From positions 1-12,644 of the forward strand of contig JAIKWN010000187.1 of assembly GCA_024684665.1 (NCBI GenBank): 12,644 nt of DNA, in the 5' to 3' direction. Made by a program: the position numbers and the translations under genes. This document shows positions 1,619 through 11,784 of the stretch, piece by piece; positions within the stretch are counted from its first letter, which is position 1, and each line of letters begins with the position of its first letter. The DNA is from Clostridiales bacterium (GTDB taxonomy: Bacteria > Bacillota_A > Clostridia > Christensenellales > Aristaeellaceae). The notes beneath the pieces are model-generated. The model was not told the DNA's origin. It saw only the letters and a program-made list of their open reading frames with translations, and did no database searches.

Positions 1619-2720
1619 ATGATCGAACTGGATACCTATCGCCAGGAACTGGCCAAAATCCGCGAAAGCATCGTTGAGGCAGGTGAGTCACTTTAACGTC
1701 GCCGGCTTGAAAGAGCAGCTCGCAGAGCTGCATGAAACCATGAACGAGCCGGACTTCTGGAACGATCTGGAGCGCTCCACGAAAGTAACCCGCCAGGTGC
1801 GCCAGGCGGAAAACAAACTGGAGCATTTCAATAAACTCTCCGCTCGTGCGGACGACGTGGAAGCTACCATGGATCTCGCCCTCGAAATGGAAGACGACAG
1901 CCTCGTTTCCGAGGCGGGCGAGGAAATCGAAAACCTCAAGGCGGATCTTGAAGAGCTTCGCCTTGAAAGTCTGCTGCGCGGCGACTACGACGCGAATAAC
2001 TGCTATCTTGCACTGCACGCCGGCGCGGGTGGCACCGAGGCCCAGGATTGGACCCTCATGCTCTACCGCATGTACACCCGCTATTGTGAGCGCCACGGCT
2101 ATAACGCCAAGGTCATCGACATCCTCGACGGGGATGAAGCGGGTCTCAAGTCCGTCACGATGGAAGTGACGGGCGACAACGCCTACGGTTTCCTGCGTTC
2201 TGAAAAGGGCGTGCACCGCCTCGTGCGCATCAGTCCCTTCGACGCGGCAGCGCGGCGGCATACCAGTTTTGCCTCTGCTGACGTGTCCCCCATCATCGAG
2301 GATGACGACAACGAGATTGAGATCAACATGAACGACGTCCGCGTGGATACCTATCATTCCAGCGGCGCGGGCGGGCAGAACGTCAACAAGACCAGCTCCG
2401 CCGTACGCATGACCCACTATCCCACGGGTATCGTGGTCTCCAGCCAGACAAGCCGCGACCAGGTGCAGAACCGCGCAAACTGCCTGCGCATGCTGAAAGC
2501 AAAGCTGCTGGAACTGCGTGAGCGCGAGCGCGAGCAGCAGATGGCCGACATCAAAGGCGAGATGAAAAAAATCGAATGGGGCAGCCAGATCCGCTCCTAC
2601 GTCTTCCATCCCTACTCCATGGTCAAGGATCACCGCACCGGATACGAGACCTCAGACGTGGCAGGTGTCATGGACGGGGAGCTGGACGGATTCATCACTG
2701 CGTACCTGCAGATGCAGTGA
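1619..2720 (+). CDS. prfB: Peptide chain release factor 2 (programmed +1 frameshift)
   Basis: RF2 recognises UGA and UAA in the ribosomal A site and triggers peptidyl-tRNA hydrolysis. The gene is read as 1619-1693 joined to 1695-2720: 25 codons in frame 0, then 341 codons in +1, total 366 residues (E. coli RF2 has 365). The ATG at 1619 has AAGGAAG nine bases upstream. The shift at CTT TAA C (1691-1697) joins the start MIELDTYRQELAKI to NVAGLKEQLAELHE. Domain order is classic: a coiled-coil N-terminal domain (about residues 1-110), AGAGGTEAQDW (about 134-144), the stop-codon-reading SPF tripeptide at 205-207 (same numbering as E. coli), the catalytic GGQ loop in SSGAGGQNVNK with GGQ at 251-253, and the C-terminal WGSQIRSYV motif. 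The frameshift autoregulates RF2 supply in most bacteria. msrA follows 14 bp downstream. Certainty of the product is very high. The odd point is UAA rather than UGA at the shift site. Confidence 0.97.
1681..1697 (+). promoter_or_regulatory. prfB: prfB programmed +1 frameshift signal (internal SD, CTT TAA C)
   Basis: An internal Shine-Dalgarno-like AGGTGA (1681-1686) matches the extended anti-SD complement AAGGAGGTGATC. It sits four bases before CTT (codon 25) and the in-frame stop TAA (1694-1696), followed by C. Slippage of the CUU-decoding tRNA to UUU resumes reading at AAC (1695). The arrangement copies the known RF2 recoding site (SD, short spacer, CUU UGA C), except that the stop is UAA. 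Confidence 0.93.
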
Positions 2721-7439: not shown

Positions 7440-10400
7440 TTACTCCTTTTTGGTTACCGTAAACGTAAACTCATCATAATAGTAAGGATATCCGCTCTTA
7501 TCATAGAGATCCCCTGTAATGCCAGGTCCGCCGCACACCGTTTCAACTTGGATCCGATACGTCCCTTCGTCTTTCAACTCATAGCTGGAGTCGGAAGCAT
7601 GCGCTTTATCGGTAATCAAAGACGTACCCTTATAGATTCTCCAATTGACAATTTCGTAATAGAGATTCTGCGGATTTACCGAGTCTTTAAGCGGGATTAC
7701 GGTGCCATCAGCCTTGGTTACGTTGAACTTCTGCTCTTTAAAGATATCGTCTCCGATTGCCGGCAGCTTCAGGCTGATCTTCTTCGCACTCTCGTCCTGA
7801 ACAACCGTCCAGGTATCCTTGACCTTGATTCCGGCGACATCGATCGTCTTTGTGATCGAAACAGAATCGATGGTCGTAGTCGCATTGACTCGGACTTTAT
7901 AGTAGCCAGCTTTAACAATCCCCCCGTACGCATACCTGTATGTCCGGTCTTCTTCATCAAGAAGGTAAACGTAATAATAGTTAATGCTCCAATCAGCGTC
8001 CGCGATGGAACTGCCGCTGATGGTCTCTGCTTTAAAGAGGCTCTTGTCGTAGAGATCGGTTCCATTCGCCGTCAGTTCCGTTTTGGCCGGCTTCAGTGTC
8101 CAGGCGTCGGTAACTTTCAGTGTGAAGTCAAAAACCTTTGTGACTGAATCCCACGTAGCTTCGGCCTTGAATCTGTATTCGCCTGCCTGGTCGATATAAT
8201 AGGTGGTGTGCCAATCCAAGCCCCAACCATCATCATAATACCGTTCAATAGAACCTATGGAATCGAGCTTCCATCCGGTGGGATCCTCGGAATAAGGTTT
8301 AATATCCCCTTTGCTGTTTGCCGCCACGAACTTAAGAACGCCGTCGGCATACCCGGTCGTCGCAAGGTCTTTTCCGTTTTCCACCACCGATGCCGTGGTC
8401 ATTGTCAATGTAAACTTCGGGGTGATGGTCAGCGTGTATACCTTTCTCTCGATCGGCGCGTAGGTGATGTCCAGCTCATGGGTTCCGCCTTCGGTCTTCG
8501 TGTATACCCATGCGCTCACTTCGAAGGTATACGTTCCGGACTCTTGGATAGGATTATATTTATAATCCTTCCCGTCCTTCTTCAGGCTTTCCGGATAATA
8601 CTCATAATAGACATATGTCGTCTGAGTAGGATCCATGATGGCGAGCGGTGTCGTGCCTGCCATAGCGGTGAATTCCGGTGTAATGGCGCTGCTCGTTTCT
8701 TCAAAAGTGGTTTCCTTGAGGTTCATTTCCCAAGCCTTCGTAATGTAGAGGTCGATACTCACACCAGTGTTGCCGTATCCGGGCTCGTCAGTAAATATGA
8801 CTACTTCGTAGTACCCAATGTCATTTGCGGAATCGACCTTTTTCCCATCCGCGTCATAAATGCTGACGTAATACTTTGCGTCAACTTCTTTACCTGCCTC
8901 GTCTAAGATCTTGAAGTCCGGAATCTTCGGGCCTCCGTCATAAATCTTGTACTGCGGGTTGTCAGCAAAAATAGTCAGATTGCCGTAGGGATGTGAAGAA
9001 TCATCGACGTATTCCAGCGCTTGTTTTTGTGTTTCGAAGATTGTCACCGTAACGGTTACCGGCTCGGCATCTTCCCATCCTTCGCACTTTGCGTTGATGA
9101 CGACGGTATACTCGCCCGCCTGCTTGGAAATATCGCCCAGCTTGATTTCCTTGCCGTCTTTGTTATTGGTCACGGCAAAGGTAACGTCAAGATCGGAGGA
9201 GCTCAAACTATATGGTGAATACAAAACATCATAATCATTTACGTCAGTGATCCTGTATCCGAGCGGGTACACATCTCCGCCCTGTGCTTTTCCGACCCAG
9301 CCGCTCTGTGTAGGTTTCGCATTGATGTACAGCTTCTTGGCGCTGACGGTAAACTCTACCGTAACGGTCATGGTGCCCTTGATCGGGTCTGCCGTGGGGG
9401 TCAGCCCGTCGGTGTTCGCCGGATCCGCGGTGATGATTACCTCTGCGGTGTATTCGCCGGGTTCCTTGATCAGATTGTCGGCGACAGCCTCACCCTTGCT
9501 GTTCTTGACGGTAATGACTGCATTATTCAGGATCGTATAATTGTCGCCCTGATGTTCCTCATCCCCGTTTTCGATCAAAAGATCATACTTACTAAAGGCA
9601 TAGCCGGTAGGCTCTGCGATGACAAAGGTGTCGAAGATGGGAGAAACATTCAGCTTGCGCTTTTCCACCTCGAAGGCGTATTCCTCTTCTGTGACCTTCG
9701 GATCCGTAAACTGGTAGCCGTCACTGCTTTCAATCGTGATCTTGTACTTGCCGGGATTCCGGATATATTCCACTTCCGTTTCGGGCGTTGTTCCGTCGGG
9801 AGTGTACAGGATCTTCTTGAACGTGACGGCGGAGGGATACGAACTCCCATCCGCGTCGACCGCCTTGAACAGATCGCCACCGGTGAAATTGTATCCTTTG
9901 TATTCCGCGGCAGTCTTCTTCTGTTCGATGGTCACGGCTCTGAGATAATTGTTGTTATAATACCCGCCGCTTGAAGCACGGCCTAGTATGGAGCCGTCCT
10001 TCGCCAGTGCCTTGACAACGATACCAAGGCGCCTGCCGTCCGTCAGAGCCTCATAGTCGCTCCTCCTGAACTCGACGAAGTATCTCTCATTGTCTTTGTC
10101 GTAGCTCTCCGTTTTCGACTTGTCCGCGGAAATCTTCTTTTTCGCGACGTCCGTCGTATGTTTGTCGTCCGTGAGGTACACTTCGAAGGAATCCGCCGTG
10201 TCATACAAACTCTTCCAGGTCACATCCACGCCCGAGTAATATTCGTGCGTAACCTTATCCTCCCTGTAATAGAAGTTAGAAGAGTCCACGTCATAAACGT
10301 AGAATCCGGACTGCGGGAGGATCATTTCCGTCCAGCCCTTGGACTTCTTCGGCTTCACCTTGTCGTCCGTCGTCGCCTGTACGGTGAACGTCATTTTCGT

Positions 10401-11708
10401 CGGGTTGCTTACGGGAGCCGCCATCACGAGCTCATAAGAATAAACCCCTTCTCCATCCGCCAAAATCTTATCCATCGTGACGGGCACTTTGGTTTTGCCG
10501 TAGGACAGTATGTAGCCCGTGGGCTTGAAGAAGTAGAAGGACGCGGGATCAAACCATCGGAGCCACACCGTGGTGGCGTCGATCTGCTCTACCTCCATGA
10601 TCATCGGTGGCGTTTTCGCGGTGAACTTTTTGAAGATCTCCAGCTTGAGCGTCGCTTTCTTCGCTTTTCCAACGTCGTCGTAGGGTATGATTCCGGTTAC
10701 CGGATCTTCTTCGCCGGTAACAATCTGAGGCGTGATGGTGAGAGTCAGCTTCTTCCCCTTCGACGTAAAGATCGGGGCAGGTATACTCTCGTGTTTTTTC
10801 GTATCGACGTTGTAGCCCCACCACACGTCATCAAGATCAAACCAGAAGTATCCGTTGATGAACGCCCAAATCTTATCCTCTGAATAAAGAGACAAGGTTC
10901 CGGTATAAATCTCGCCGCCCTGGGTTTGCGCCGTGATGAGATATCGGTCTGCGGCCTTTTTCGTATAGGCGCAAATATCTATATAATCGTTATAATAGCG
11001 GGCAACGATTTCAGGCTTGCCGGGAACAGCATCCGTTTCCGCGTAGAACTCATAGCTGTCACGGTCCACGTCGAATTTTACCTTCGTAATCGCGTAATCC
11101 TTCGTCGTCGGCTCGACGGTCACCGTCACTTTTTCAGACGCGCGGCCATAAGTCTCGGATCCGTTTTGGTCCGCCTTCTCCAAGCGAGCATAGAAAGTAT
11201 AATCGCCCGGGTTCTTGACGGTGATCTTGGTCTTCATCGCCGCGGTAGCTTTTTTCGGGACTTCCTCCGGAATGCCGGTATAAGGATGCACAGCGTAAAT
11301 GTAGAACTTCACGCCGGCATACGCGCCGCTACCGAGCTTCACGGAAGGAGCAGCCGTCGTACAGGCCTCATCCGTGAACAGGCCGAAGTTCAGGGTTATT
11401 GTCTTTTTACCCGGCTTCATGGCATCAGGCGTTACCTTGACATACCATTTCTGCCAGTCGTTCGTCAAGGCTGCATCCGGCAGTGTCTCGGTCTCCATCA
11501 GGAAGACGGACCGGTCTTCAGCCTCGGCCTCTGCGCCTTCTTCCGGCGCTTCCGCCTCAAAGGCGTCGCCGAAGAAGGACTCTTCCGAGAAGAATTCTTC
11601 TCCCTGGACTCCCGCGTCCAGGAAAGATTCTTCCATGAACACTTCCTCTGCGCCCGCGACCGCAAACAGCATCGCCAGCGTAAGGATGAATATACCCCAA
11701 CGTTTCAT
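7440..11708 (-). CDS. Giant secreted multi-Ig-like-domain surface/extracellular protein
   Basis: 1422 residues. The chosen Met is at 11708-11706, with AAAGGAG 6 bases upstream; the frame extends 19 codons further without such a site. A signal peptide is clear: MKRW, hydrophobic IFILTLAMLFAV, cleavage after AGA at about residue 20. Next comes an acidic region (21-66) with a duplicated EE-F-x-EESF motif. The rest is beta-rich and full of Tyr, Thr and Lys. Recurrent module ends of the form G-x-Y-x-(V/F/I) occur at 167-172, 652-657, 750-755, 864-869, 964-969, 1057-1062, 1175-1180, 1267-1272 and 1381-1386, as in bacterial Ig-like domains. Segments around 370-445 and 480-570 look fibronectin-III-like. 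The last four modules share a period of about 100 residues. No enzyme motif, LPXTG, S-layer homology domain or C-terminal membrane span is visible. Adhesion, matrix or glycan binding is plausible but unproven. The gene looks more A+T-rich than its neighbours. It has its own promoter and terminator. Confidence 0.9.
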   Translation of the reverse strand: MKRWGIFILTLAMLFAVAGAEEVFMEESFLDAGVQGEEFFSEESFFGDAFEAEAPEEGAEAEAEDRSVFLMETETLPDAALTNDWQKWYVKVTPDAMKPGKKTITLNFGLFTDEACTTAAPSVKLGSGAYAGVKFYIYAVHPYTGIPEEVPKKATAAMKTKITVKNPGDYTFYARLEKADQNGSETYGRASEKVTVTVEPTTKDYAITKVKFDVDRDSYEFYAETDAVPGKPEIVARYYNDYIDICAYTKKAADRYLITAQTQGGEIYTGTLSLYSEDKIWAFINGYFWFDLDDVWWGYNVDTKKHESIPAPIFTSKGKKLTLTITPQIVTGEEDPVTGIIPYDDVGKAKKATLKLEIFKKFTAKTPPMIMEVEQIDATTVWLRWFDPASFYFFKPTGYILSYGKTKVPVTMDKILADGEGVYSYELVMAAPVSNPTKMTFTVQATTDDKVKPKKSKGWTEMILPQSGFYVYDVDSSNFYYREDKVTHEYYSGVDVTWKSLYDTADSFEVYLTDDKHTTDVAKKKISADKSKTESYDKDNERYFVEFRRSDYEALTDGRRLGIVVKALAKDGSILGRASSGGYYNNNYLRAVTIEQKKTAAEYKGYNFTGGDLFKAVDADGSSYPSAVTFKKILYTPDGTTPETEVEYIRNPGKYKITIESSDGYQFTDPKVTEEEYAFEVEKRKLNVSPIFDTFVIAEPTGYAFSKYDLLIENGDEEHQGDNYTILNNAVITVKNSKGEAVADNLIKEPGEYTAEVIITADPANTDGLTPTADPIKGTMTVTVEFTVSAKKLYINAKPTQSGWVGKAQGGDVYPLGYRITDVNDYDVLYSPYSLSSSDLDVTFAVTNNKDGKEIKLGDISKQAGEYTVVINAKCEGWEDAEPVTVTVTIFETQKQALEYVDDSSHPYGNLTIFADNPQYKIYDGGPKIPDFKILDEAGKEVDAKYYVSIYDADGKKVDSANDIGYYEVVIFTDEPGYGNTGVSIDLYITKAWEMNLKETTFEETSSAITPEFTAMAGTTPLAIMDPTQTTYVYYEYYPESLKKDGKDYKYNPIQESGTYTFEVSAWVYTKTEGGTHELDITYAPIERKVYTLTITPKFTLTMTTASVVENGKDLATTGYADGVLKFVAANSKGDIKPYSEDPTGWKLDSIGSIERYYDDGWGLDWHTTYYIDQAGEYRFKAEATWDSVTKVFDFTLKVTDAWTLKPAKTELTANGTDLYDKSLFKAETISGSSIADADWSINYYYVYLLDEEDRTYRYAYGGIVKAGYYKVRVNATTTIDSVSITKTIDVAGIKVKDTWTVVQDESAKKISLKLPAIGDDIFKEQKFNVTKADGTVIPLKDSVNPQNLYYEIVNWRIYKGTSLITDKAHASDSSYELKDEGTYRIQVETVCGGPGITGDLYDKSGYPYYYDEFTFTVTKKE

Positions 11709-11735
11709 ATGCGTCTCCTTTCTTTTTTCCCATAA

Positions 11736-11745
11736 ACCCATGGGT
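11736..11745. promoter_or_regulatory. Palindrome in the leader of the giant gene
   Basis: A perfect 10-bp palindrome ACCCATGGGT lies between the minus-strand -10 element and the ribosome binding site, a few bases after the expected transcription start. A further CCCAT copy lies at about 11729-11733. This could be a repressor site or a 5' mRNA hairpin; there is no direct evidence for either. Confidence 0.25.
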
Positions 11746-11755
11746 AGCTGTTCAA

Positions 11756-11784
11756 ATTGTACCAATTATCTGCAATATTGTCAA
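11756..11784 (-). promoter_or_regulatory. Near-consensus sigma-A promoter of the giant gene
   Basis: On the minus strand TTGACA (11784-11779) is a perfect -35, then a 17-base spacer, then TACAAT (11761-11756), 5/6 to the -10 consensus. Initiation near 11749 gives a leader of about 40 bases carrying the AAAGGAG site. This predicts strong, largely constitutive expression. Confidence 0.88.

Follow-up and report, generated by a model that had tools for sequence, protein, structure and literature searches.

The prfB gene in the window (the 12,644-nucleotide stretch of Clostridiales bacterium DNA analysed here) is a member of the known rare form of the RF2 frameshift site in which the premature stop is UAA, and comparison with relatives suggests that this UAA looks genuine, inherited and selected. 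We consider it probable that the gene uses a working +1 programmed frameshift with normal prfB autoregulation, and that a single G-to-A change turned UGA into UAA in the ancestor of a clade of gut Clostridia and was fixed wherever the shift was kept. At the level of sequence, what is new is the clade-level fixation of UAA with a nearly frozen cassette, together with its recurrence in the order; an apparent RF1 change nested in the same lineage is a further addition to the known form.

Table 1. Features of the prfB shift site and gene in the window
Feature	Positions	Strand	Basis or remark
prfB frame-0 leader ORF, 25 codons + TAA	1619..1696	+	sequence; CTT is also codon 25 from the start in most shift-bearing relatives
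Shift cassette GTT GAG GCA GGT GAG TCA CTT TAA C, nearly frozen	1673..1697	+	codon conservation
SD-like AGGTGA, 4 nt 5' of CTT	1681..1686	+	computed duplex with 16S tail, -14.7 kcal/mol
GAGG and UC	1676-1679 and 1688-1689	+	could lengthen SD pairing with the 16S tail
Shifty stop CTT TAA C	1691..1697	+	sequence, relatives' sites, tree
RF2 body, +1 frame	1692..2720	+	stop TGA 2718-2720; SPF 2232-2240; GGQ 2370-2378

Apart from the stop, the prfB site is, as far as its sequence can be read, of classical RF2 frameshift anatomy (Table 1). Frame 0 begins with ATG at 1619, reads MIELDTYRQELAKIRESIVEAGESL and reaches TAA at 1694-1696 as codon 26, as the initial annotation had proposed in reporting TAA in place of TGA at the shift site. 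The spacer GTCA separates AGGTGA from the CTT at 1691-1693, a C follows the stop, and the +1 frame reads TTT at 1692 and AAC at 1695. This +1 frame encodes RF2, matching the TIGR00020 prfB model at 497.8 bits (cut-off 370) and keeping the SPF and GGQ motifs. The locus has the features of prfB autoregulatory +1 frameshifting, namely an RF2 product, a leader ORF ending in CTT-stop-C, an internal SD and a stop that RF2 can read; it lacks one typical (98.6%) but not defining feature, a stop read by RF2 alone (UGA). E. coli prfB (AGGGGG UAU CUU UGA C, PMC8710568) is described with the same short leader ORF, internal SD, CUU, C after the stop and RF2 in the +1 frame, but its stop is UGA, and the window differs further in its AGGUGA SD, its spacer of 4 nt and the UCA ahead of CUU, a register common to UGA-type Clostridia. 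The SD and spacer also depart from the consensus given in PMC12421855 (AGGGGG, 3-nt spacer). Elsewhere in the window, the ~1 kb 5' of prfB (574-1618) holds no convincing gene, the ORFs of at least 80 aa contained there reaching at most 130 aa, and an Rfam scan of the window, this region included, gave no match at gathering scores. On the minus strand, a 1,441-aa ORF at 7440-11765 has no Pfam match over the cut-off and is perhaps secreted, judged by eye from its start.

To place the site among its relatives, we scanned genome contigs for RF2, which gave 316 relatives, and retained and read the best 80. A shift site was present in 16 of these 80, and in all 16 it was CTTTAAC, which argues strongly against chance or error; the other 64 had sense codons at that place, one of them (L058) with just 15 bases upstream. 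TAA is thus conserved among relatives, as the initial annotation had required, and the close relatives with TGA that would have spoken against it were not found (0 TGA among 23 shift-bearing genes of the window's clade, all 23 of which have TAA). Sequencing error as the source of TAA is disfavoured, since many separate assemblies agree. Nor is the UAA state confined to fragmentary assemblies: G055, a UAA genome of the clade, has a 3.97-Mb contig and G053, a UAA genome outside it, one of 2.42 Mb.

Codon conservation indicates that the shift cassette is under constraint. Across 18 inner-clade sequences, leader codons 19-25, the stop and the C after it never vary, save for one GAA in place of GAG, so that six of the seven codons are codon-invariant; in the rest of RF2, 190 degenerate codons have an invariant amino acid and only 12 of them an invariant codon (17 of those sequences; Fisher p 1.6e-6, an approximate value as the sequences share descent). 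UGA-type relatives in the order carry an identical or similar SD cassette, so essentially only the stop has been swapped. A survey of the class by the pattern GGTGANTCNCTTTRAC, to which other cassettes are invisible, fetched 29 loci, 25 of them UGA-type RF2; we therefore discarded the idea that the AGGTGA register is peculiar to the window, as this survey found it in UGA-type Clostridia. We saw no compensating stronger SD at UAA sites: the computed leader:16S tail duplex of the window (-14.7 kcal/mol) compares with -15.4 kcal/mol in one UGA-type relative, and other UAA sites are weaker (-12.6, -10.9 and -9.7); the same computation gave -12.2 for the 12-base core of E. coli and -7.7 for one shiftless relative. 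An altered 16S tail was also rejected as an explanation: among 20 genomes, the canonical 16S 3' end occurs in G055 and G053, in three copies each, and the other 18 gave no match to it, perhaps because their 16S genes are unassembled.

UAA at this position has been seen before, and the initial annotation was right that UGA is the usual form, but the novelty is smaller than it supposed: in the survey of Prince et al. 2025 (PMC12421855), CTTTAA, the premature stop of the window, accounts for 1.4% of prfB shift sites across 8,164 genomes and UGA for 98.6%, and earlier surveys are said to have had TGA in all but one sequence. PMC5009743 gives the cassette as UGA(C). Prince et al. also state that UAA sites are not broadly fixed in particular clades and that UAA is poorly tolerated; here, by contrast, UAA is found in every shift-bearing member of a 23-row clade and recurs in the order. 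That study used RefSeq representative genomes and the 16 UAA relatives among our best 80 are all MAGs, so this clade may have escaped it. In the literature searched, which left most subscription papers outside its reach, we recognised no earlier description of clade-fixed TAA in prfB.

To trace the UAA state, we went beyond the best 80 relatives, reading sites from other genomes in the order, the family and the class, and built a tree of 113 shift-bearing RF2 proteins (76 TGA, 37 TAA), using sequence that begins after the site. The window falls in a clade of 23 rows without TGA (SH-aLRT 99), next to a clade of nine rows (support 81) with eight TGA and one TAA. When shiftless genes were added, the window lay in a 96-row clade (support 98) of 18 TAA, 78 shiftless and no TGA rows, within which the shift has been lost more than once, and the UAA version may therefore be of little use. 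The 113-protein tree needs nine changes between TGA and TAA, seven of them forced by well supported branches, and a single origin of all UAA sites was rejected (AU test p 2.7e-111, for a group named after the data were seen). UGA to UAA is the likely direction, because most order sites read and 25 of 28 class rows are TGA. A C follows the stop at 35 of 37 TAA and 75 of 76 TGA sites; two UAA-type sites (L220 and L221, from G223 and G314) have G there (TAAG), and one UGA site (L229, G021) has A.

We searched 297 genomes of the order, the better matches alone being listed, and read sites in 94 of them (13 TAA, 45 TGA, 36 shiftless). TAA makes up 13 of the 58 shift sites in this sample, against 1.4% in print, a share to be read with the bias of the sampling towards the window's kin, since reading favoured genes near the window or with GGTGANTCNCTTTRAC, which sees one kind of cassette only. 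G141 was counted as TGA though its leader is cut by a contig end, and G193 was judged shiftless from its long open RF2 frame although the script called it TGA. From the tree with shiftless genes, RF1 loci and 401-base pieces were left out by design and identical proteins were counted once; L157 and L274 were dropped as weak matches and L266 for length, and L240 was called shiftless. L266 was restored in an intermediate set, from which L369 was left out for length, and L240 and L369 are in the 113-protein tree. Four genes judged shiftless (L133 of G110; L177, L186 and L191 of G043, G069 and G193) have CTTTAAC or CTTTGAC in frame, read as Phe-Asn or Phe-Asp; such stretches are possibly relics of a lost site, hinting at a former stop.

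Stop usage in the genome regions examined gives no cause for the swap. Stop counts from an ORF script of our own, on pooled ORFs of at least 150 aa and with no gene caller, show UGA ending 147 of 264 ORFs from 12 genomes of the window's clade, 85 of 208 from seven further genomes with a UAA site and 105 of 291 from ten with a UGA site. The claim that no codon is reassigned stood: TGA is the commonest stop in the clade, ends ORFs at 571-573 and 2718-2720 in the window, and RF1 and RF2 are both present. Low UGA use is not supported as a cause, as UGA is commoner in UAA-site genomes (per-genome Mann-Whitney p 0.04, not corrected for kinship). GC is higher in UAA-site genomes (p 0.046), and AT mutation bias is unlikely, with window-clade regions averaging 61% GC.

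On the accepted model of a prfB shift site, release and slippage compete at the stop; at UGA, RF2 alone competes, and at UAA both factors do. Both factors are available here, as had been supposed, since RF1 passed the cut-off of its model in all 20 genomes of one set and in 28 of 30 of a second set, whose other two (G076 and G354) have RF1 fragments at contig ends. Ribosomes would pause at CUU UAA C with the internal SD paired to the 16S tail; if release were slow, tRNA-Leu would slip from CUU to UUU and full RF2 would be made. RF2 reads UAA and hence could still close the loop, and RF1 would add a second, RF2-independent termination term, making the loop looser and the basal shift rate probably lower. 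On E. coli values, with expression of 82.8 RPKM for prfA and 736.7 for prfB (reported in PMC5373646) and kcat/KM on UAA of 138.3 for methylated RF1 and 21.2 for methylated RF2 (reported in PMC8131318), RF1 would hold ~42% and RF2 58% of UAA termination capacity, arithmetic that may not hold in this lineage; because of this share, a mixed response to RF1 and RF2 is plausible. The best reading is ordinary +1 frameshift autoregulation that would still sense RF2 with an added RF1 term. Against this explanation, UAA should be the better terminator and lower RF2 output with no compensation seen in the SD, Prince et al. regard it as poorly tolerated, and the clade has lost the shift repeatedly.

The same E. 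coli figures bear on two other accounts of why UAA is kept. A swap without regulatory meaning, with UAA just tolerated for RF2 and RF1 mattering little, would fit the otherwise unchanged cassette and the at least seven changes forced on the tree, the similar kcat/KM of RF2 on UAA and UGA (21.2 and 28.2, PMC8131318), and the far larger amount of RF2 than RF1 that E. coli makes (PMC5373646). The absence of UGA from the 23-row clade speaks against such equivalence, as does the 98.6% share of UGA elsewhere in bacteria reported in PMC12421855, which argues that UAA and UGA differ, and we regard it as possible but somewhat short of likely. Alternatively, the UAA loop may have been selected so that RF2 synthesis tracks total UAA-release capacity, a proposal that we consider fairly unlikely: UAA can be read by both factors, whose genes are both present, RF1 would hold a substantial share (the ~42% above), and UAA is clade-fixed and has arisen repeatedly. 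These data do not distinguish selection for UAA from drift, however, the high UAA share in the order may be due in part to the preference of the sampling for the window's kin, and the RF1 of the window's closest relatives lacks a stop-stacking histidine, which might weaken the RF1 input.

This RF1 carries GKRQTS instead of GRIHTS in its stop-recognition strand, in all 12 UAA genomes G001-G012 and in the shiftless G017 and G018. The lost histidine (His193 in T. thermophilus, His197 in E. coli) is described in PMC3974865 and PMC5681627 as the residue that stacks against the stop codon, and His197Ala is reported in PMC3974865 to make peptide release 5-fold slower; if the Gln RF1 were slowed likewise, its share at UAA would be ~13% by the same E. 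coli arithmetic. In the list of 120 RF1 proteins nearest to the G002 protein, 118 have KRQ, one has RRQ and one has no match to the search expression. Of the 87 RF1 proteins read in the family and order, 65 have His and 22 have Gln. Their tree calls for three changes, each of them forced by branches with good support; the Gln genes (L085-L100, L405, L422, L428, L436, L440, L450) belong to three separate family lineages, and all 22 have Lys two residues before the Gln. UAA-site genomes have 12 Gln and 13 His (25 read, with RF1 not read in eight), UGA-site genomes 0 Gln and 15 His, and shiftless genomes 9 Gln and 21 His; in G389, RF1 has Gln and the prfB site was not read. The RF1 motif search missed five genes, of which those of G032, G060, G199 and G303 were read later and that of G053 was left out. 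The branch leading to RF1 of G001/G002 is very long, and no other RF1 that passed the cut-off in the family sample scored as low as the one from G002.

RF1 and the RF2 loop could have co-evolved, with the change from His to Gln weakening RF1 on UAA and restoring RF2 control after the swap had exposed RF2 synthesis to RF1. We think this unlikely: 13 of the 25 UAA-site genomes read keep His, among them G013-G016, G055 and G346 of the window's wider clade, so the UAA swap seems to be older than the RF1 Gln; Gln arose in shiftless lineages too, the association rests on three clades, and genes ending in TAG are not visibly scarcer (29 of 264 ORFs in the window's clade, against 36 of 291 in UGA-site genomes). 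Among the matches listed, in a search that most subscription papers lay beyond, we recognised no published RF1 lacking the stop-stacking histidine.

A role for the RF2 protein itself, with Asn (AAC) favoured over Asp (GAC) at residue 26, is very improbable: although all 11 shiftless genes in the window's 24-row subclade have Asn, most genes of the larger shiftless group (67 rows) have His there, so Asn is not needed, and the Asn of other shiftless genes may be a relic of a UAA ancestor. It is barely credible that there is no frameshift, RF2 being made from an internal +1-frame start such as TTG 1674 or the TAA being a sequencing error, since that TTG does open the +1 frame but is missing from the UAA relatives L071 and L054, the leader and cassette are conserved, and the TAA is shared by many separate assemblies.

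The near-universal UGA at prfB is a main comparative argument for feedback by RF2 only, and the window's clade departs from the published view that UAA sites have not spread to fixation across whole clades. If true, a natural RF1 able to read stops without this histidine would be a notable variant in itself. A clade that keeps UAA within a nearly frozen cassette offers a natural test of that argument, allowing one to ask if RF1 takes part in the loop and if it changed in response.
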